From NCBI GenBank assembly GCA_001769535.1, contig MEOH01000012.1, positions 62,001 through 126,000 of the forward strand: a stretch of DNA of 64,000 bases, written 5' to 3'. Of this stretch, positions 8,090 to 15,856 are shown one piece after another. A program made the position numbers and the translations under genes. Each line of letters begins with the position of its first letter. Positions within the stretch are counted from its first letter, which is position 1. The stretch is from Bacteroidetes bacterium GWF2_38_335 (GTDB lineage Bacteria > Bacteroidota > Bacteroidia > Bacteroidales > GWF2-38-335). Under the pieces are notes generated by a model, which saw nothing but the letters and a program-made list of their open reading frames with translations, was not told the origin of the DNA and did not search any database.

Positions 8090-8701
8090 ATGAGCGAACA
8101 GCGGCAAAACATTACAACCGAAACGATTTATATCAGGAACATGCTGTGCCGCAGCTGTATAAAAGTGGTGCGTCAGGAACTTGAAAACGCCGGTGTTGCT
8201 GTGGAGTCAATCAGATTGGGAGAGGCATTGGTAAGCTACAATCCTTCAAAAATATTGATGGCCGATATTGAAAAGGTCCTGTTGAATAACGGTTTTGGCA
8301 TTGTCATTGAACGCGAAAAAATGATTGTGGAGCAGATAAAACAGTGCGTTGTGGAACTCATTCACATGATGAACAATGTTGATTCAATAGTGCGGAGATC
8401 TGAATATCTGGTTGAGAAAATGAATATGAGCTACCAGCAATTGTCAAAACTTTTCTCAAAACATGAGCCATTGACTTTGGAAAAATACATTATCCTGAAT
8501 AAAATTGAACGCACAAAAGAACTGCTGCTTTCAAATGAATTTACACTCAGTGAAATCGCTTATATGATGGATTACAATTCGGTGCAGTATCTGTCAACTC
8601 AGTTTAAAACGGTGACCGGACAATCTGTTTCAGAGTATAAAAAATTGATGACGGTTAATAAGATTCCCCTTGAAGATCTGGGGAAAAATGATAATAAGTA
8701 A
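8090..8701 (+). CDS. AraC-family regulator with an N-terminal heavy-metal-associated-like domain
   Basis: A protein of 203 residues. Residues 10-80 look like an HMA/CopZ-type domain (beta-alpha-beta): TIYIRNMLCRSCIKVVRQEL, then VSYNPSKI and KVLLNNGFGI. The metal-binding pair is Cys20-x2-Cys23. Residues 110-190 are an AraC-type DNA-binding domain: YQQLSKLFSKHEPLTLEKYI, KELLLSNEFTLSEIAYMMDY, then LSTQFKTVTGQSVSEYKK. The cytosolic sensor would bind a soft metal such as Cu(I), or a thiol-reactive signal, and change DNA binding; this is inferred from the fusion only. It lies 138 bases upstream of a six-gene operon on the same strand and is the natural candidate for its regulator. No other DNA-binding gene is close. 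Confidence 0.85.
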   Translation: MSEQRQNITTETIYIRNMLCRSCIKVVRQELENAGVAVESIRLGEALVSYNPSKILMADIEKVLLNNGFGIVIEREKMIVEQIKQCVVELIHMMNNVDSIVRRSEYLVEKMNMSYQQLSKLFSKHEPLTLEKYIILNKIERTKELLLSNEFTLSEIAYMMDYNSVQYLSTQFKTVTGQSVSEYKKLMTVNKIPLEDLGKNDNK

Positions 8702-8763: not shown

Positions 8764-8824
8764 TAATTTTGAAATGAAAAAAATGAAAAACCTTTTAAAG
8801 CCTACCTGCCAGGGGAAGCTTTAA
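8764..8824 (+). promoter_or_regulatory. Leader region of the PqqD/ATP-grasp operon: -7 box and hairpin
   Basis: TAATTTTG (8764-8771) is an exact Bacteroidota -7 box, but no TTTG lies at the -33 distance, so promoter strength is unclear. Downstream, TTAAAGC (8795-8801) pairs perfectly with GCTTTAA (8818-8824) around a 16-base loop. No T-run follows, so it is not a normal terminator. It could be an attenuator, an RNA-stability element, or coincidence with a tiny reading frame that occupies the same bases. Confidence 0.45.
8774..8824 (+). CDS. Possible 16-residue peptide upstream of PqqD (doubtful)
   Basis: A very short frame, MKKMKNLLKPTCQGKL, ends 15 bases before the PqqD-like gene. It is basic, contains one Cys and no acidic residue. 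RiPP precursor genes often sit directly before the gene of their RRE/PqqD partner and can be about this short (PqqA is about 23 residues). Against it: the first ATG lies only three bases after the -7 box, so a transcript from that box would begin inside the frame, leaving at best the second ATG (13 residues). The same bases also form a hairpin. I list it so it can be tested, not as an established gene. Confidence 0.2.
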   Translation: MKKMKNLLKPTCQGKL

Positions 8825-8839
8825 TAATATACCTGTAAT

Positions 8840-9094
8840 ATGAAGATAAAAAAGAACATCGCAGTCAGCGAAAACGGTTTTGTTTTTGATCCCACAACGG
8901 GAGATTCTTATTCGTTGAATGAAATCGGAACAGAATTCCTGAATCTGATGAAAGCAGGAAAATCAAAGGAAAAAATCCAGAAGGAAATCATGAATAAATA
9001 CGATGTGGATGAAATTACTTTTGAAAAAAGTTTCCATGATTTCATTAAAATGTTGGCTACATACCAGTTAATAGAAGATCATGAAGAAAAATAA
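8840..9094 (+). CDS. PqqD-family (RRE-like) small protein
   Basis: A protein of 84 residues with the PqqD layout: short N-terminal strands (VSENGFVFDPTTGDSYSLN), the conserved NEIGTEFLNLM turn into a helix, and a C-terminal winged-helix-like part ending in LATYQLIEDHEEK. PqqD-type proteins bind a peptide or leader and present it to a modifying enzyme; in Bacteroidota many are found without PQQ genes. It overlaps the ATP-grasp gene by 14 bases, so translation is probably coupled and the two proteins are likely partners. No radical-SAM or cyclodehydratase gene is in the operon, which separates it from PQQ or thiazole/oxazole pathways. The peptide or carrier it binds is not known. Confidence 0.82.
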   Translation: MKIKKNIAVSENGFVFDPTTGDSYSLNEIGTEFLNLMKAGKSKEKIQKEIMNKYDVDEITFEKSFHDFIKMLATYQLIEDHEEK

Positions 9095-10232
9095 AACAGC
9101 AATACCTCCGGGGAAAGTTAAAAAGCCTGTTTCGTCTAAGAGCAAAGCGGTTTTAACCCAGGCTTCTCCTAAACCCAAGCCCTCGCGAAAAAGGATTAAA
9201 ATAACTATTGCCGTTACGGGATTAAACAATACCGATAATCCTGGTCCGGGCATCCCCGTAATCAGATCGCTCAGGGAATCGAAAATTTTTGAGCCGAGGA
9301 TAATAGGATTGGCATACGAAAACCTTGAGCCGGGCATTTATATGCGCGACCATGTGGATAAGGTGTATCAGATGCCTTACCCTTCGGCCGGTACCGATTT
9401 GCTGATCAGCAGGCTGGAATACATCAACTCTGTTGAGAAAATTGATGTGTTGATTCCCAACTTTGATGCTGAGCTGTATTCATTTATGAAATCTTCAGCC
9501 AAACTCAAAAAGATGGGCATCAAAACATTTCTGCCCACACTCGAACAATTTGAGGAACGTCATAAAGCGGTTCTTTCCGAATATGGTAAAAAGTATGGCA
9601 TCAGCGTTCCCAAATCAACACCGATTTATTCGGTAAGCGAGGTTTATAATCTTTCAAGGGATTTTGAATTCCCCGTATTGGTTAAAGGAAAGTATTACGA
9701 TGCTTATATTGCTTATAATAATGAGCAAATCATCAATTACTTCAATAAAATTACCTCTAAATGGGGCGTTCCGGTAATCATTCAGGAGTTCATTAAAGGT
9801 ACCGAAGTTAATGTCATTGCTTTGGGCGACGGAAAAGGAAAAACCATTGGTGCCGTGCCCATGCGCAAGCAATATATCACTGATAAAGGCAAGGCATGGG
9901 GAGGTATTACCATTGATGACAAGCAACTGCTTAAAATTACCCGCGATGTGATTTCAAAAACCAAATGGCGCGGGGGAATGGAACTGGAGATGATCAAAAC
10001 AACCAACAATGAATACTTCCTGCTTGAGATCAACCCGCGAATACCTGCATGGGTTTATCTGGCGGTGGGAGCCGGGCAAAATATTCCCGAAGCATTGGTG
10101 AAACTTGCCATGGGAATGCCTGTAATGCCATATACCGAATACGAGGTGGCCAAAATGTTTGTGAGATATTCATACGACATGATCTGCGACATCAAGACAT
10201 TCGAGAAACTTTCTACAACAGGTGAATTGTAA
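9081..10232 (+). CDS. ATP-grasp ligase (carbamoyl-phosphate-synthase-like fold)
   Basis: A protein of 383 residues. Residues 1-38 are Lys/Pro/Ser-rich and look unstructured. The pre-ATP-grasp Rossmann part is at about 40-165 (ITIAVTGLNNTDNPGPGIPV, then DVLIPNFDAE). The ATP-grasp domain covers about 170-345: FPVLVKGKYYDA (ATP lysine), VIIQEFIKGTEVNVIALGD, and the metal-binding end GGMELEMI followed by FLLEINPRIPAW. ATP-grasp enzymes join a carboxylate, through an acyl phosphate, to an amine or thiol. The overlap with PqqD and the decarboxylase next door suggest a joint route that uses an amino acid. The closest families I can think of are PylC-like and peptide-ligase-like proteins, without certainty. 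Confidence 0.88.
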   Translation: MKKNKTAIPPGKVKKPVSSKSKAVLTQASPKPKPSRKRIKITIAVTGLNNTDNPGPGIPVIRSLRESKIFEPRIIGLAYENLEPGIYMRDHVDKVYQMPYPSAGTDLLISRLEYINSVEKIDVLIPNFDAELYSFMKSSAKLKKMGIKTFLPTLEQFEERHKAVLSEYGKKYGISVPKSTPIYSVSEVYNLSRDFEFPVLVKGKYYDAYIAYNNEQIINYFNKITSKWGVPVIIQEFIKGTEVNVIALGDGKGKTIGAVPMRKQYITDKGKAWGGITIDDKQLLKITRDVISKTKWRGGMELEMIKTTNNEYFLLEINPRIPAWVYLAVGAGQNIPEALVKLAMGMPVMPYTEYEVAKMFVRYSYDMICDIKTFEKLSTTGEL

Positions 10233-10262
10233 GCTTTTTTTAAAACTGAAAACAATCAAACA

Positions 10263-11621
10263 ATGGAAAAACTGAGATTTGAAAGGCCGATAATTAAAAG
10301 AATTGAAACCGGCATGCCAAACAAATTTGGCACAAAAACCGAATATGATCCCATTTCACATATCGACGGTGTTGCCGTTGCCGATCTGATTAAAAAATAT
10401 GGAAGTCCGCTTTTCGTGGTCTCTGAAAAAACAATCAGAAAAACCTTCAACGATGCCAAAAGGTCATTCTATACCCGCTACCCGCGCGTGCAGTTTGCAT
10501 GGTCGTATAAGACAAATTATCTGGATGCTGTGTGCCGTGTTTTTCATGATGAAGGTTCCTGGGCCGAAGTGGTTTCGGGTTTCGAATATGATAAAGCCAT
10601 ACGAAATGGGGTAAAAGGCGATAAAATCATTTTTAACGGTCCCGATAAAAGTGAAGCCGATCTTGAAAAAGCTGCAAAAAACGGCTCCATGATTCACCTC
10701 GACCATTTTGATGAACTGTACACTCTCATCGAGCTGGCCGAAAAGAAAAACCTTAAACCTAAAGTTGCTGTCAGGGTGAATATGGACACTGGTATTTATC
10801 CAAGCTGGGACCGTTTTGGTTTTAACTATGAAAATGGCGAAGCATGGGATGCCATCAACAGGATCATGCTTAATAAAAAGCTTGAATTGGTTGGCTTGCA
10901 CACCCACATTGGAACTTATATTTTATCGGTAAAATCTTATGGAATTGCCGCTTCAAAACTTTCTTATCTCGCTTCTGAAATTGAAAAGAAATACGGACAT
11001 GCAATTAAATATATTGATATGGGAGGAGGATTTGCCAGCAAAAACACGCTTAAAGGTGCTTATCTTCCCGGAACCGACACCTGTCCGTCGTTCGATGAAT
11101 ATGCCGAAAGTATAACATCCGGAATTATCAATTCCGAAATTAAACCCGAAAATTTACCTTTCCTGATTTTGGAATCAGGTCGTGCGTTGATTGATGATGC
11201 AGGGTATATAATCGGTACAACTTTGGCAAACAAACGCCTGCCCGACGGCCGCCGTTCCATGATCATTGATGTTGGAGTCAACCTGCTGTTCACCTCTTTC
11301 TGGTATGAGCATAAAATTACTCCGGCCCACGCCTTTACCCAGCACACCGAAGACACAACAATCTTCGGACCGCTTTGCATGAACATTGATGTTATCAGGC
11401 AAAACATTTCATTTCCGGTTCTCAAAAAAGGTGATCAATTTGTTATCAGCAAGGTTGGAGCATACAATATGACCCAATGGCTGCAGTTTATTACCCTTAG
11501 ACCAAAAATTGTGCTCATCGACCTGAAAAAAGGTGTTCATATTATTCGGGAAAGCGAAACAGCAGAAAATTTCATCAGAATGGAAAAAACACCCGAGCAC
11601 TTAACAAGCAGGCAGGAATAA
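10263..11621 (+). CDS. PLP-dependent decarboxylase, alanine-racemase fold (LysA/ornithine decarboxylase type)
   Basis: A protein of 452 residues of the fold-type III decarboxylases. The PLP lysine is Lys83 (SYKTN, in place of the usual Y-A-x-K-A-N). Other marks are GLHTHIGTY (about 211-219), the phosphate-binding DMGGGFAS (252-259), ESGR (304-307, in place of E-P-G-R) and FGPLCMNIDVI, with Cys372 and Asp376 as the catalytic C-x3-D supplied across the dimer. Family members decarboxylate diaminopimelate, lysine, ornithine or related amino acids. The altered specificity segments and the operon argue against simple lysine biosynthesis. Its stop overlaps the next start as TAATG. Substrate unknown; an amino acid or a ligated amino acid is inferred. 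Confidence 0.88.
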   Translation: MEKLRFERPIIKRIETGMPNKFGTKTEYDPISHIDGVAVADLIKKYGSPLFVVSEKTIRKTFNDAKRSFYTRYPRVQFAWSYKTNYLDAVCRVFHDEGSWAEVVSGFEYDKAIRNGVKGDKIIFNGPDKSEADLEKAAKNGSMIHLDHFDELYTLIELAEKKNLKPKVAVRVNMDTGIYPSWDRFGFNYENGEAWDAINRIMLNKKLELVGLHTHIGTYILSVKSYGIAASKLSYLASEIEKKYGHAIKYIDMGGGFASKNTLKGAYLPGTDTCPSFDEYAESITSGIINSEIKPENLPFLILESGRALIDDAGYIIGTTLANKRLPDGRRSMIIDVGVNLLFTSFWYEHKITPAHAFTQHTEDTTIFGPLCMNIDVIRQNISFPVLKKGDQFVISKVGAYNMTQWLQFITLRPKIVLIDLKKGVHIIRESETAENFIRMEKTPEHLTSRQE

Positions 11622-13807
11622 TGAGTGTTGATCTGGGTAAAATAAAACAATTCTTCAGGGGAGTGGTCAACAGCTATTCCCAGATTTTCTTTTCAAACAA
11701 GATTGTTTTTTCATTAATCCTGATCGGAGTTTCTTTTTTTGACATCTACAGTGGATTGTACGGATTGATTGCCGTACTGGTCTCAAATATCACAGCACTT
11801 AGTCTGGGCTTCGACCTACGTAGAATTGCCTCAGGCCTCTATGGTTTCAATTCACTTTTGTTGGGACTTGGAATCGGCATTCATTTCGATCCGGGATATT
11901 TATCCCTTTTTGTCCTGGTTATTTCGGCCATTTTCACGTTTTTTATTTCGGTGGTACTTGAAGGGTATCTGGGAAAATACAACCTTCCTTTTTTGAGCAT
12001 TCCGTTTCTTATTGGCATCTGGACCGTTTCTTTGGCCACGCGTGAATTTGAGGAGTTGATGATCAGTGAACGGGGCATTTTTGTTTACAACGAGCTTTAC
12101 AAAACAGGCGGACAGTCTTTGATAAACCTGTATGAATGGTGGAAGGAAATTTATATTCCCGAATCATTAAAATCCTATTTCATGTCTCTGGGAGCCATCT
12201 TTTTTCAGCCAAATGTTCTTGCAGGAATATTGATCGCCCTGGGATTGTTGATATACTCGCGCATTGCATTTATGCTTTCACTCATTGGTTTTTATGCAGC
12301 CTATTATTTCTATATCAGAATGGGTGTGAATATTGAACAGATAGCATATTCTTACATTGGTTTCAATTATATTCTCACAGCCATTGCACTGGGAGGTTTC
12401 TTTCTTGTTCCAAACAAGTTAACCTTTATGTGGACCATCCTGCTTGTTCCGGTTGTTGCCATGATAACTATCAGTTCATCCTACATTTTCTTTAAACTTC
12501 ATTTGCCTATATATTCATTGCCTTTCAACGCACTGGTTATCATTTTTCTTTATGTGCTGAAGCTTAGGATGACTTATTCCAACAGACTTTCTGAGCCGGT
12601 TGTACAGCATTTTTCCCCTGAAAAAAACCTGTATTATCACCGAAATACTTTCAGCAGGTTTAAAAATGCAGGAAAATATCCGATGAAATTGCCATTTATG
12701 GGTATTTGGCGGGTAACACAGGGCCATAACGGAGATAATACCCATAAGTCAGACTGGAGACATGCCTGGGATTTTGAGATTTTTGACAATGAAAACAAAC
12801 AGTTTCAGGGCGAAGGAAACACTGTTTCCGACTATTATTGCTATGATAAACCGGTACTTGCTCCGCTGGGCGGATATGTGGAAGAAATTATCGATGAAAT
12901 TCCGGATAACCCTGTTGGCGAGATAAACATGAACAATAACTGGGGAAACACAATTGTCATCAGACACACAGATTTTCTGTTTTCCCAATTGAGCCACCTG
13001 AAACCCGGATCGGTAAAAATTAAAAAGGGAGAATATGTAAAACAAGGTCAGAACATTGCTTCAGCAGGAAATTCGGGCCGGTCGCCATTTCCGCATCTGC
13101 ATTTTCAATTGCAGGCAACGCCGTATATCGGGTCAAAAACTTTGGAGTATCCGGTTTCAAATTATATTGTCAAAAACGCAGACACATACGATTTTCAATC
13201 ATATAAAAATCCATCAAACGGTCAGGATGTGACCAATATCGTTCCGCAGAAAATACTGGGCAATGCTTTTAAAATGGTGCCCGGAAAGAAAATGATTTTC
13301 AGTTACAAGGGAAAAACAATCGAGTGGGAAATAGCCACAGATTTTTATTATAACCATTATATATATTGTGCCCTAACAAATTCATATGCCTATTTTTATT
13401 CAGATGATGACCTGTTCTTTTTTAAAGGATTTAAGGGAAAGAAATCGTCCCTGCTTTATCATTTTTATCTGGCAGTTTATAAAATTCAAAAGGGCTTTTA
13501 CAGAAATATAAACCTTACCGACAAATATCCGGTAAATGTAATTGGAAACAAGACTATATTGGCTTTTCAGGATATTTTCGCGCCCTTTTTCATGTTTACA
13601 AAAGGAGTTTACACGATGACCGATGATTTTATTGACGATGAAATGTGGCCGTCGATGATTAAACTCCGTTCCGAAGCAGCTCTCTTCCTGTTTGGTTATA
13701 AAGTTAAATCGGTAAGCTATATTATTGAAATTGATAACGAAGGAATTAAATCAATTACCATTAATGAAAAAAATAAAAACACCCTGGCAACATGCATAAG
13801 ATCCTGA
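11621..13807 (+). CDS. Fusion of a urea-transporter-like membrane domain and an M23 metallopeptidase domain
   Basis: A protein of 728 residues. Residues 25-315 hold about ten hydrophobic segments and look like the SLC14/UT urea channel family: GLYGFNSLLLGLGIGIHF and GKYNLPFLSIPFLIGIW match the repeated L-P-x-x-x-x-P-F pore motif. Residues 370-510 are an M23 (LytM-like) domain: HAWDF, then a lysyl-glycine strand, AGNSGRSPFP and HLHFQ with His492 and His494 as the H-x-H zinc ligands. The last 200 residues have no motif I know. The peptidase is probably on the periplasmic side, but this topology is inferred. The predicted substrate of the channel may be a urea-like or amide molecule. It overlaps the next gene by 16 bases. 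Confidence 0.85.
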   Translation: MSVDLGKIKQFFRGVVNSYSQIFFSNKIVFSLILIGVSFFDIYSGLYGLIAVLVSNITALSLGFDLRRIASGLYGFNSLLLGLGIGIHFDPGYLSLFVLVISAIFTFFISVVLEGYLGKYNLPFLSIPFLIGIWTVSLATREFEELMISERGIFVYNELYKTGGQSLINLYEWWKEIYIPESLKSYFMSLGAIFFQPNVLAGILIALGLLIYSRIAFMLSLIGFYAAYYFYIRMGVNIEQIAYSYIGFNYILTAIALGGFFLVPNKLTFMWTILLVPVVAMITISSSYIFFKLHLPIYSLPFNALVIIFLYVLKLRMTYSNRLSEPVVQHFSPEKNLYYHRNTFSRFKNAGKYPMKLPFMGIWRVTQGHNGDNTHKSDWRHAWDFEIFDNENKQFQGEGNTVSDYYCYDKPVLAPLGGYVEEIIDEIPDNPVGEINMNNNWGNTIVIRHTDFLFSQLSHLKPGSVKIKKGEYVKQGQNIASAGNSGRSPFPHLHFQLQATPYIGSKTLEYPVSNYIVKNADTYDFQSYKNPSNGQDVTNIVPQKILGNAFKMVPGKKMIFSYKGKTIEWEIATDFYYNHYIYCALTNSYAYFYSDDDLFFFKGFKGKKSSLLYHFYLAVYKIQKGFYRNINLTDKYPVNVIGNKTILAFQDIFAPFFMFTKGVYTMTDDFIDDEMWPSMIKLRSEAALFLFGYKVKSVSYIIEIDNEGIKSITINEKNKNTLATCIRS

Positions 13808-15138
13808 TAATTATAATGTTTTTTTTCTTTTTCCGTGGACTTGCTCAGGATACCATCACTTACAGTTATGTGAATGAAAAAACCTATGATTATTACCTAA
13901 AAGGTGAATGGAAAAGTGTATGCAAATTGGGGATGAAAGGTATAAAAAATGACATTGATTATTATTACCTCCGTGCCCGCCTTGGAAAATCATTTTTTGA
14001 AAGAGGAAACTATATGGCTGCAGCCAGACATTTCAGAAAAGCTCTTAAACAAAATTCGGCAGATCCTTTTTCCATGGAATATCTTTATTATTCACTGATT
14101 AATACGGGTGATCTCAGAGAGGCTGCTGTACTCAGAAGTAACATGAGCAATGAACTGGCTGATTATATGAAACTGAACAAAAAGCAACCATTTATTGATG
14201 ATTTTTTATTTGAATTTGCTACCTGCAGCAACAAGGATTTTGAAGAACAATCCGTAATCAATCTGGAAAACTTTCCAATTGGAAGCAAAAAAAACCTGAC
14301 GGATAACTATCTGAATTTAACAATTCTGGCACGTCATCCGTTGTGGAAAAGAGTTGATTATACCCATGCAATAACCCATTTGTCACTGAATGGATTGGAG
14401 CAGTCAAGACCCACCGGAACACCTCCTTTTACACCGCCACCTTATATTGAAGATGAACAGACAGTTTCGCAAAATCAGTATTTCGGAAATATAAATTTTC
14501 ATATTTCCCGAAAAGATGACTTTTCTGTCGGTACACATTTATTGACAAGCAAAACAAGTATAACAAGAGGAGGGAGAGGAAATTATGGCAATATCATGTC
14601 GCGCGAAAATAACGGTGTGGTTTTTGTAAATTATCTCAGATCATTTTCTGTTTTTAAAGCAAATCTTTTTCTTGCAAAAGGAAATATCAACCTTGACAAG
14701 CAATATCAGGGAACAGCAACATTGTACTATTTTCCATTTGGAAACCTGAACTTATATGGATCAACAGAAATCACAGGAATCAGTGAAAATGACACAACAA
14801 ATAAAATTATATGGCAGCAAATGGCCGGATTCAGGGCAATGAAAAACACCTGGCTTGAATTCTCATATATGTCGGGCGATATTAAAAACTACCTTGATAA
14901 GGGCGGACTGATTGTTTACAACAACACAAATACCATTACCTCAAAAGCTGAAGGAACAATTATGGTTTCATTTCCTAAATCACATATAAGGGTTTACTTT
15001 AAATATTTCTATATTACAAGCAAGGGAGATAATTTTTATAGCAGTATCAACGATGCAAATCCAACTGATTACAGTAATCTTAATGCAACCAAATATCATT
15101 TACAAACAATTACCGGAGGACTATTATGGAACTTTTGA
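13792..15138 (+). CDS. Outer-membrane barrel with N-terminal TPR-like region (YaiO-like)
   Basis: A protein of 448 residues. A signal peptide (MHKILIIIMFFFFFRGLAQ) is followed by a TPR-like region (LRARLGKSFFERGNYMAAAR, HFRKALKQNSADP; about 50-125). From about residue 170 the sequence is a run of amphipathic strands (YFGNINFHISRKDDFSVGTH and others) and ends in a terminal aromatic residue (GGLLWNF). This is the outer-membrane barrel signature and the overall form of YaiO-type proteins. It overlaps the transporter/peptidase gene by 16 bases and the next TPR gene by 13, so it is firmly part of the operon. It could serve as an exit or entry channel for the operon's product; that is inference. 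Confidence 0.75.
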   Translation: MHKILIIIMFFFFFRGLAQDTITYSYVNEKTYDYYLKGEWKSVCKLGMKGIKNDIDYYYLRARLGKSFFERGNYMAAARHFRKALKQNSADPFSMEYLYYSLINTGDLREAAVLRSNMSNELADYMKLNKKQPFIDDFLFEFATCSNKDFEEQSVINLENFPIGSKKNLTDNYLNLTILARHPLWKRVDYTHAITHLSLNGLEQSRPTGTPPFTPPPYIEDEQTVSQNQYFGNINFHISRKDDFSVGTHLLTSKTSITRGGRGNYGNIMSRENNGVVFVNYLRSFSVFKANLFLAKGNINLDKQYQGTATLYYFPFGNLNLYGSTEITGISENDTTNKIIWQQMAGFRAMKNTWLEFSYMSGDIKNYLDKGGLIVYNNTNTITSKAEGTIMVSFPKSHIRVYFKYFYITSKGDNFYSSINDANPTDYSNLNATKYHLQTITGGLLWNF

Positions 15139-15743
15139 AAAAAATAACCCTGACAGCAATTGCTGTGATTTTTACTGCCAATGTATATTCACAGACAACA
15201 ACAGAAATTCAGGCAGCTTTTACCCTGAGTTATACCCATGAAAAAAACGGCGAATATGCCAAGGCCATCGATGAGATGAAAAAGGTGCACACCGAAGAAA
15301 GTTATGAAGTCAACCTTCGTTTGGGATGGCTCAATTATGAGGCAGGACACTTTACAGTTTCCATCTCCTATTATCAGAAAGCCATTACCCTGATGCCCTA
15401 CGCCATTGAGGCAAAATTCGGATTGGTTTACCCGGCATCGGCAGCAGGAAACTGGGATCAGGTGATATCCCAATACAACGAGATTTTAAAGATTGATTCT
15501 AAAAACACGGTGGCCAATTATCGCATGGGAGTGATATATTATGAAAGAAAAGACTATAAAAAATCCTTTGAATACCTTGAAAAAGTCGTTAACCTTTATC
15601 CTTTTGATTATGACGGATTGATCATGTTTGCCTGGTGCAATTATATGCTTGGTAATACAAGAGAAGCAAAAGTGCTTTTCAATAAGGTGTTGATGCTTTC
15701 ACCAAGCGACAGTTCGGCTAAGGAAGGGTTGGGGTTGTTATAG
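15126..15743 (+). CDS. Secreted TPR protein
   Basis: A protein of 205 residues with a signal peptide (MELLKKITLTAIAVIFTANVYS). At least four TPR units follow (YEVNLRLGWLNYEAGHFTVS, YYQKAITLMP, VANYRMGVIYYERKDYKKSF, YLEKVVNLYPFDYDG). They fill the protein up to the stop. TPR proteins in the periplasm usually hold complexes together, here perhaps linking the barrel and the membrane peptidase. It is the last gene of the overlapping operon. Its stop codon lies inside the first arm of a perfect 15-base-pair hairpin. Confidence 0.82.
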   Translation: MELLKKITLTAIAVIFTANVYSQTTTEIQAAFTLSYTHEKNGEYAKAIDEMKKVHTEESYEVNLRLGWLNYEAGHFTVSISYYQKAITLMPYAIEAKFGLVYPASAAGNWDQVISQYNEILKIDSKNTVANYRMGVIYYERKDYKKSFEYLEKVVNLYPFDYDGLIMFAWCNYMLGNTREAKVLFNKVLMLSPSDSSAKEGLGLL

Positions 15744-15856
15744 GAATATGCTTACGCATATTCCTATAACGGACATGCAGAGGAGGACATGCAGAGGCAT
15801 GTCCGTACATCTGCGCATTTATTTTGCTCTGCATGTACGTGGTGCGGAATTTTGCA
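15737..15856 (+). repeat. Cluster of palindromes after the PqqD/ATP-grasp operon
   Basis: Three structures follow the operon. A perfect inverted repeat of 15 bases per arm (15737-15751 and 15756-15770, loop TTAC) includes the stop codon of the TPR gene. GGACATGC/GCATGTCC (15785-15792 and 15797-15804) forms a second hairpin whose left half is also a direct repeat of 15771-15782. GTACAT/ATGTAC (from 15805 to about 15838) forms a third. None has a T-run, so they may protect the 3' end or be REP-type repeats rather than simple terminators. The rest of the gap up to dprA is AT-rich and shows nothing clear. Confidence 0.7.

Follow-up and report, generated by a model that had tools for sequence, protein, structure and literature searches.

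A conserved six-gene operon of Bacteroidota in which a PqqD-family protein may dock on the leader-like tail of a decarboxylase

A 64,000-nucleotide stretch of Bacteroidetes bacterium GWF2_38_335 (contig MEOH01000012.1, positions 62,001 to 126,000; the whole stretch is hereafter the window) carries at 8840-15743 an operon of six genes, which we letter A (PqqD), B (ATP-grasp), C (decarboxylase), D (urea transporter, UT, fused to M23), E (a tetratricopeptide repeat, TPR, protein with a barrel), and F (a second TPR protein), with R for a regulator. A belongs to the RiPP recognition elements (RREs), RiPP standing for ribosomally synthesized and post-translationally modified peptide. Our tentative reading is of an RRE system without a precursor peptide, in which the stand-alone RRE would grip a leader-type tail on an enzyme and organise a ligase-decarboxylase assembly whose product would go to a UT fused to a cytoplasmic M23 domain, with the tail perhaps itself a substrate. 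Within this reading A very probably docks on the tail of C, judging from sequences, because the tail motif matches the cleft of A and because position 64 of A covaries with position 6 of C. The other parts of the reading draw on the conserved operon, the intact catalytic residues, the side of the membrane that the charge rule gives for M23, and the barrel model.

None of the component types (RREs, alanine-racemase (AR)-fold decarboxylases, UTs, M23 domains) is new in itself. No description of the gene combination, of an enzyme tail as an RRE ligand, or of a cytoplasmic M23 domain on a UT fold was found in the open-access literature, and the statement in a preliminary description of this DNA that no described pathway has this content therefore holds for that literature. 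Because an RRE is taken as a sign of a precursor peptide, RREs serve to locate peptide natural products. In this operon the one conserved ligand motif belongs to an enzyme, and some of the many "orphan" PqqD proteins may thus be adaptors for docking enzymes and not belong to overlooked RiPP clusters. To find an M23 (murein hydrolase) family peptidase on the cytoplasmic face of a urea-channel fold would be a surprise as well, and a six-part set with clear knock-outs and cultured carriers means that the product can be sought directly.

The features are as follows.
8090..8701, + strand: R, HMA-like and AraC-type helix-turn-helix regulator, 203 amino acids (aa); HTH_18 49.9 bits, HMA weak
8840..9094, + strand: A, PqqD-family RRE, 84 aa; PF05402 42.2 bits
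9081..10232, + strand: B, ATP-grasp carboxylate-amine ligase, 383 aa; Pfam and NCBIfam ATP-grasp
10263..11621, + strand: C, alanine-racemase-fold pyridoxal phosphate (PLP) decarboxylase, 452 aa; Orn_Arg_deC_N 104 bits and a C-terminal sheet domain
10263..10355, + strand: tail of C, leader-like N-terminal extension MEKLRFERPIIKRIETGMPNKFG..., with [Y/F]xxPxI at residues 6-11 and K21
11621..13807, + strand: D, UT domain, M23, and C-terminal beta domain, 728 aa; PF03253 211 bits, PF01551 51 bits
12707..13114, + strand: M23 domain of D; H375, D384, H459, H492, and H494 invariant; predicted cytoplasmic
13792..15138, + strand: E, signal peptide, predicted periplasmic TPR and 14-strand outer-membrane barrel (AlphaFold2 model)
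15126..15743, + strand: F, secreted TPR protein, 205 aa; TPR_2 79.9 bits, four repeats; N-terminal signal-like sequence

The coordinates of the six open reading frames (ORFs; 8840-9094, 9081-10232, 10263-11621, 11621-13807, 13792-15138, and 15126-15743, all + strand) bear out every junction given in the preliminary description (a 14-base overlap, a 30-base gap, TAATG, a 16-base overlap, and a 13-base overlap), and Pfam agrees with its names for the PqqD, ATP-grasp, decarboxylase, UT/M23, and TPR domains. None of the six proteins received a curated NCBIfam system name.

The PqqD-family protein and the tail of the decarboxylase

Relatives were gathered with the UT-M23 fusion as query on whole genomes of the same order (295) and phylum (395), and the neighbourhoods were then retrieved. 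The catalytic domain of C does not include residues 1 to ~30 (the family profile begins to match PDB entries near 28-34), which have the consensus M-E-K-x-x-[Y/F]-E-R-P-x-I-x-K ... G-x-x-N-K-F-G, with [Y/F]6, P9, and K21 in 175/175 sequences and G23 in 172/176. The motif [YF]xxPx[ILV] was present in 114 of 116 C tails versus 25 of 656 (3.8%) other proteins of the same loci, and among the operon proteins it is near-universal in C only (D 47/201, others 4 or fewer). YxxP is the recognition motif bound by lasso, LPP, and PQQ-type RREs (PMC12710340; PMC13381572).

By sequence profile A has the RRE fold (PF05402 42.2 bits, above the cutoff of 23.4), and its sole matches in the PDB were the lasso RREs TbiB1 (E 3e-13), TfuB1, and PbaB1, all of them solved with their leaders (PMC13381572). 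In our alignment position 64 of A (A64) falls on LppB D70 and PbaB1 Q79, and A27 on LppB N33 and PbaB1 G42; D70 of LppB forms a hydrogen bond with the leader Tyr in the published complex, where N33 holds the Pro kink in place, while PbaB1, a binder of WxxP, has lost both LppB-type residues (PMC13381572). The cleft of A has N27 in 176/176 sequences, F68 in 169/176, and D or N at 64 in 125/176. A thus resembles the lasso discrete RREs (TbiB1, TfuB1/FusB1, PbaB1) and LppB in its profile match, in the cleft residues N27, D/N64, and F68, and in the ligand motif [Y/F]xxPx[I/L/V], but here an enzyme of 450 residues carries the motif on its tail, and, unlike lasso systems, the set is without precursor peptide, lasso peptidase, or cyclase.

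The residue at A64 follows that at position 6 of the tail (C6) closely. Where C6 is Tyr, A64 is Asp or Asn in 124/125 pairs, and where C6 is Phe, A64 is Tyr, Ser, Ala, or His in 50/50; read from the side of A, D or N at A64 always occurs with Tyr6 (124/124) and other residues with Phe6 (50/51). The proteins of the window (N27, F68, and Ser64, which is D, N, or Y in relatives, in A; Phe6 in C) are consistent with this rule. The top pair among ~38,000 A-C column pairs was A64-C6 (Z 17.6), the second was A64-C20 (Z 14.9), and only one C column, C6, tracked A64 (99.4%; next best 79%). There was no general excess of mutual information across the C tail (21 pairs among the top 200 against an expectation of 18), the signal being confined to positions 6 and 20. 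A tree of B, C (catalytic part), and D gives 6 changes at A64 and 5 at C6, with 4 independent pairs on supported branches and 0 opposed. The partner of PqqD that this covariation indicates is the tail of the decarboxylase, not, as the preliminary description had suggested, the ATP-grasp protein. One genome (G067) carries two copies of the cluster (L070 and L083), whose residues at A64, C6, and C20 are N-Y-D and D-Y-N, respectively, as though the two were held orthogonal to each other.

No conserved small ORF lies 5' of A, the 16-aa ORF of the window (8774-8824) being without counterpart in relatives, and no YxxP-bearing small ORF recurred in more than 5 loci of the neighbourhoods. Of the features that define a RiPP cluster, a separate precursor peptide was thus not found, while a putative RRE-type leader motif is present on the tail of C. 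C might be a precursor fused to its enzyme, analogous perhaps to borosin precursors fused to their methyltransferase: the tail would comprise a leader and a short core (G17..K21-F22-G23), B would modify it (e.g., at Lys21), and M23 would cut free a cofactor-like peptide. K21 and G23 are indeed conserved beyond the RRE motif, C20 also covaries with A64, the operon has both an ATP-grasp ligase and a predicted cytoplasmic peptidase, and cofactor RiPPs such as PQQ usually have conserved cores. However, a 450-residue enzyme would be spent on every product, the decarboxylase residues of C are all kept, and cleavage is without evidence, which leaves this an improbable account.

The decarboxylase, the ligase, and their candidate substrates

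The nearest PDB relatives of C are N-citrylornithine decarboxylase (7kh2, 281 bits) and diaminopimelate (DAP) decarboxylase (1twi, 213 bits). K83 and C372 are conserved in the family, and the cross-dimer Cys loop reads CMNID in C versus CMQHD in FslC and CES in DAP decarboxylase (DAPDC). The citrate contacts of FigC/FslC are H357 and R387, with T327 and Y331 also mapped (PMC7857480); by alignment to 7kh2, C retains the latter two as T344 and Y348, and in place of the former has I375 and Q405, two residues that are well conserved across its family. Citrate as the acyl group was rejected on these replacements. Since T344/Y348 are kept as in FslC but the citrate contacts are replaced, we infer from the sequence that the substrate is a large N-acylated compound that is not citryl. 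C thus shares with FslC/FigC (7kh2) the fold, the PLP lysine, the cross-dimer Cys with its following Met, and T344/Y348, but differs in the citrate contacts and in the added N-terminal tail of putative RRE-binding type.

C fell below the cutoffs of two curated models, with scores of 224.8 bits against the N-citrylornithine decarboxylase model NF041039 (cutoff 500) and 211 bits against the LysA model TIGR01048 (cutoff 297.9). The source genome has a true lysA elsewhere, beside aspartate kinase, as well as an arginine-decarboxylase-like gene; the concern, raised in the preliminary description, that C might be the only lysA is thereby removed, and a housekeeping LysA role was rejected on this ground.

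Kinship to N-citrylornithine decarboxylase could suggest a metallophore, with B and C making an acyl-diamine chelator like rhizoferrin, D-E-F exporting it, and the HMA/AraC regulator, which is often adjacent, controlling the set. We consider this unlikely, as FigC's citrate-binding H357/R387 are I375/Q405 in C (PMC7857480), the set has no TonB receptor or NRPS-independent siderophore (NIS) synthetase, and the UT pore would be too narrow for a siderophore.

In B the ATP-grasp residues E303, E316, N318, and K202 are invariant, and the nearest PDB entries (2pn1 and carbamoyl-phosphate synthetase) are distant. The B of the window begins with a ~40-residue Lys/Pro/Ser-rich N-terminal extension (9081-9206) that was not seen in aligned relatives. 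The closest parallel to the B-C pair is BtrJ/BtrK of butirosin, where an ATP-grasp ligase likewise works with an AR-fold decarboxylase. BtrK is a structural relative of C, and in that pathway BtrJ performs ATP-grasp loading before the carrier-bound group is decarboxylated. The difference lies in the small protein, an acyl carrier protein there and an RRE here.

The envelope proteins and a proposed path

D comprises a UT domain (aa 14-313; PF03253 211 bits, cutoff 25), an M23 domain (aa ~363-498; PF01551 51 bits), and a C-terminal beta domain, and both families were found in 51/51 relatives. The UT part of its AlphaFold2 model (pLDDT 92) matches dvUT (TM-score 0.85), and the part after it matches M23/LytM domains. 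The Zn ligands and catalytic His of the M23 domain of D (H375, D384, H459, H492, H494) are all invariant. The net charges of the N-terminus, successive loops, and C-terminus are +1.6, -0.9, +1.5, -0.2, +1.0, -1.9, +1.0, -1.2, +1.0, 0.0, and +3.6; from this alternation and the 10 transmembrane segments, both ends of D, and with them M23, would be cytoplasmic, as are both termini of UT-B. We therefore regard a cytoplasmic M23 domain as probable, although most of the stand-alone M23 proteins nearest to it are secreted or lipoproteins, which leaves the side a prediction. One stand-alone relative (L200, in G413) has several N-terminal transmembrane segments followed by a Lys/Arg-rich stretch, and is perhaps another cytoplasmic M23.

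The preliminary description had called this domain murein-peptidase-like. The loop charges speak against M23 as a murein-facing enzyme, and with it against murein or envelope remodelling, in which a periplasmic M23 would cut peptidoglycan, the UT would import a turnover product, and B and C would act on recycled murein peptides by a DAP-decarboxylase-like step on bound DAP. The M23 fold with its intact residues, the mostly secreted or lipoprotein stand-alone relatives, and the relationship of C to DAP decarboxylase would all suit such a role, but the predicted placement of M23 inside, its attachment at the PE.N segment that follows transmembrane segment 10 of UTs, and the FslC-like CM motif of C in place of the CES of DAPDC make it a poor candidate.

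Compared with the urea transporters dvUT and UT-B, D has the same fold, 10 transmembrane segments, and C-terminal PE.N segment, and adds the M23 and beta domains, predicted to be cytoplasmic. The pore Phe and Gln are conserved; dvUT lines its pore with two pseudo-symmetric polar residues, of which one, a Glu, is Ala in D (A192). Uptake and assimilation, in which the UT would import urea or a small amide for B and C and E would be an inward porin, could account for the UT fold, the conserved Phe and Gln, and the E barrel, which is nearest the uptake channels FadL/TodX/CymA; it is rather unlikely in our judgement, given the loss of the pore Glu, the lack of a urease or amidase in the set, and an RRE that would be left unexplained.

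The preliminary description's "barrel" call for E was upheld by an AlphaFold2 model (pLDDT 91) with TPR helices (aa 24-125) followed by a 14-strand barrel (aa 137-447). The best fold matches of the barrel were FadL/TodX, CymA, and OmpG, with Z about 20 (VIA), which shows the fold only. As modelled, E has the plan of TPR-plus-barrel exporters (BcsC, PgaA, AlgK/AlgE) and of Slam, an N-terminal periplasmic TPR before an outer-membrane barrel, but its 14-strand barrel is nearest FadL/CymA/OmpG in fold, sequence matches to BcsC, PgaA, AlgE, and Slam were weak with no relationship found, and, unlike the sets of the exporters, this one is without a polymer synthase. A Slam-like barrel was considered for this plan, and Slam has no entry among the fold matches listed, which does not exclude it.

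We advance the following as a general scheme of an RRE-docked ligase/decarboxylase module with envelope export, tentatively and not for every step. In the cytoplasm, A would hold C by way of the leader-like YxxP tail; this docking would assemble C with B, whose gene overlaps that of A. B would join a carboxylate to an amine, and C would then strip the joined (acylated) amino acid of its alpha-carboxylate; we give this order a little less than an even chance. FslC/FigC decarboxylates N-citrylornithine and BtrK acts on a carrier-bound glutamyl group, and the C step may be likened to both. The M23 domain of D, predicted to lie in the cytoplasm beside the mouth of the UT-type pore, might trim the product or a by-product, and F together with E, or in other classes with a separate barrel, would complete a path over the periplasm and outer membrane. 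Whether cargo passes the pore outward is an evenly balanced question. The working idea of the preliminary description, an amino-acid-derived or peptide-linked small product passing the envelope, is still no more than the best guess.

Several points weigh against our reading. The tail of C could be conserved for folding or active-site closure instead. The A64/C6 rule has a lone exception (L210, His64-Tyr6), and there are about 4-7 independent coupled changes only, so that the covariation is to be judged by its exactness and by the chemistry of the solved complexes more than by event count. D was found without A-B-C nearby in some loci, part of them on short contigs. Finally, a UT pore constriction is about 2-2.5 A wide (PMC10541013), and by analogy the pore of D is too narrow for a bulky acyl-diamine; it may therefore carry a small by-product or substrate instead.

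Conservation of the operon, its regulator, and neighbouring genes

The gene set is inherited together, widespread in Bacteroidota, and present in cultured strains, carriers including Rhodonellum, Prolixibacter, Mariniradius, Aquiflexum, and Algoriphagus. Full-length copies of D occurred in roughly 115 of the 295 order genomes and about 35 of the 395 phylum genomes. The order A-B-C-D-E-F on one strand was kept in 63 of 77 complete neighbourhoods, and divergence is correlated among the operon genes (Mantel r 0.69-0.89 versus a permutation maximum of 0.25), which supports the earlier claim that the genes act together. Eight more of the 77, from another class, have A-B-C-D-F without E, together with a separate ~275-aa barrel gene that in most adjoins F and whose product is homologous to the E barrel (hhalign probability 96, E 3e-9); the set, whose conservation beyond close relatives the preliminary description had left to be checked, is thus kept far beyond them. 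A further 96 D-anchored loci have A, B, and C complete in 78, the remainder including short contigs and loci with A-B-C not adjacent. One genome has the set divided between two loci, A-B-C and D-E-F, which fits two modules. A defence-system search with PADLOC gave no match, and plasmid-borne spread of C was dropped as an idea, the sole match being one distant lysA.

R, likely a local regulator accessory to the set, lies on the same strand just 5' of A in 24-25 of the 77 complete loci (about a third) and is divergent in 3. A gene for a secreted DUF2202 protein, which we take to be ferritin-like, occurs near the set in 19 loci and in L070 stands between R and A (12836-13540). Optional genes stand between C and D in some loci (L079:7751-8695, L069:3036-4076, and others), coding for an IF-2B-fold protein in 6 loci and for an acyltransferase-3/HGSNAT membrane protein in a few more, and these interposed genes may encode tailoring enzymes of the pathway. 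In L098-L105, from the other class, the gene directly 5' of A often codes for a secreted protein bearing a type IX secretion C-terminal domain. A stop splits D into two ORFs in L106 (G299), and G222, G261, and G057 show one internal stop. In the window, a repeat-rich palindromic stretch (15743-15850) lies immediately 3' of F.

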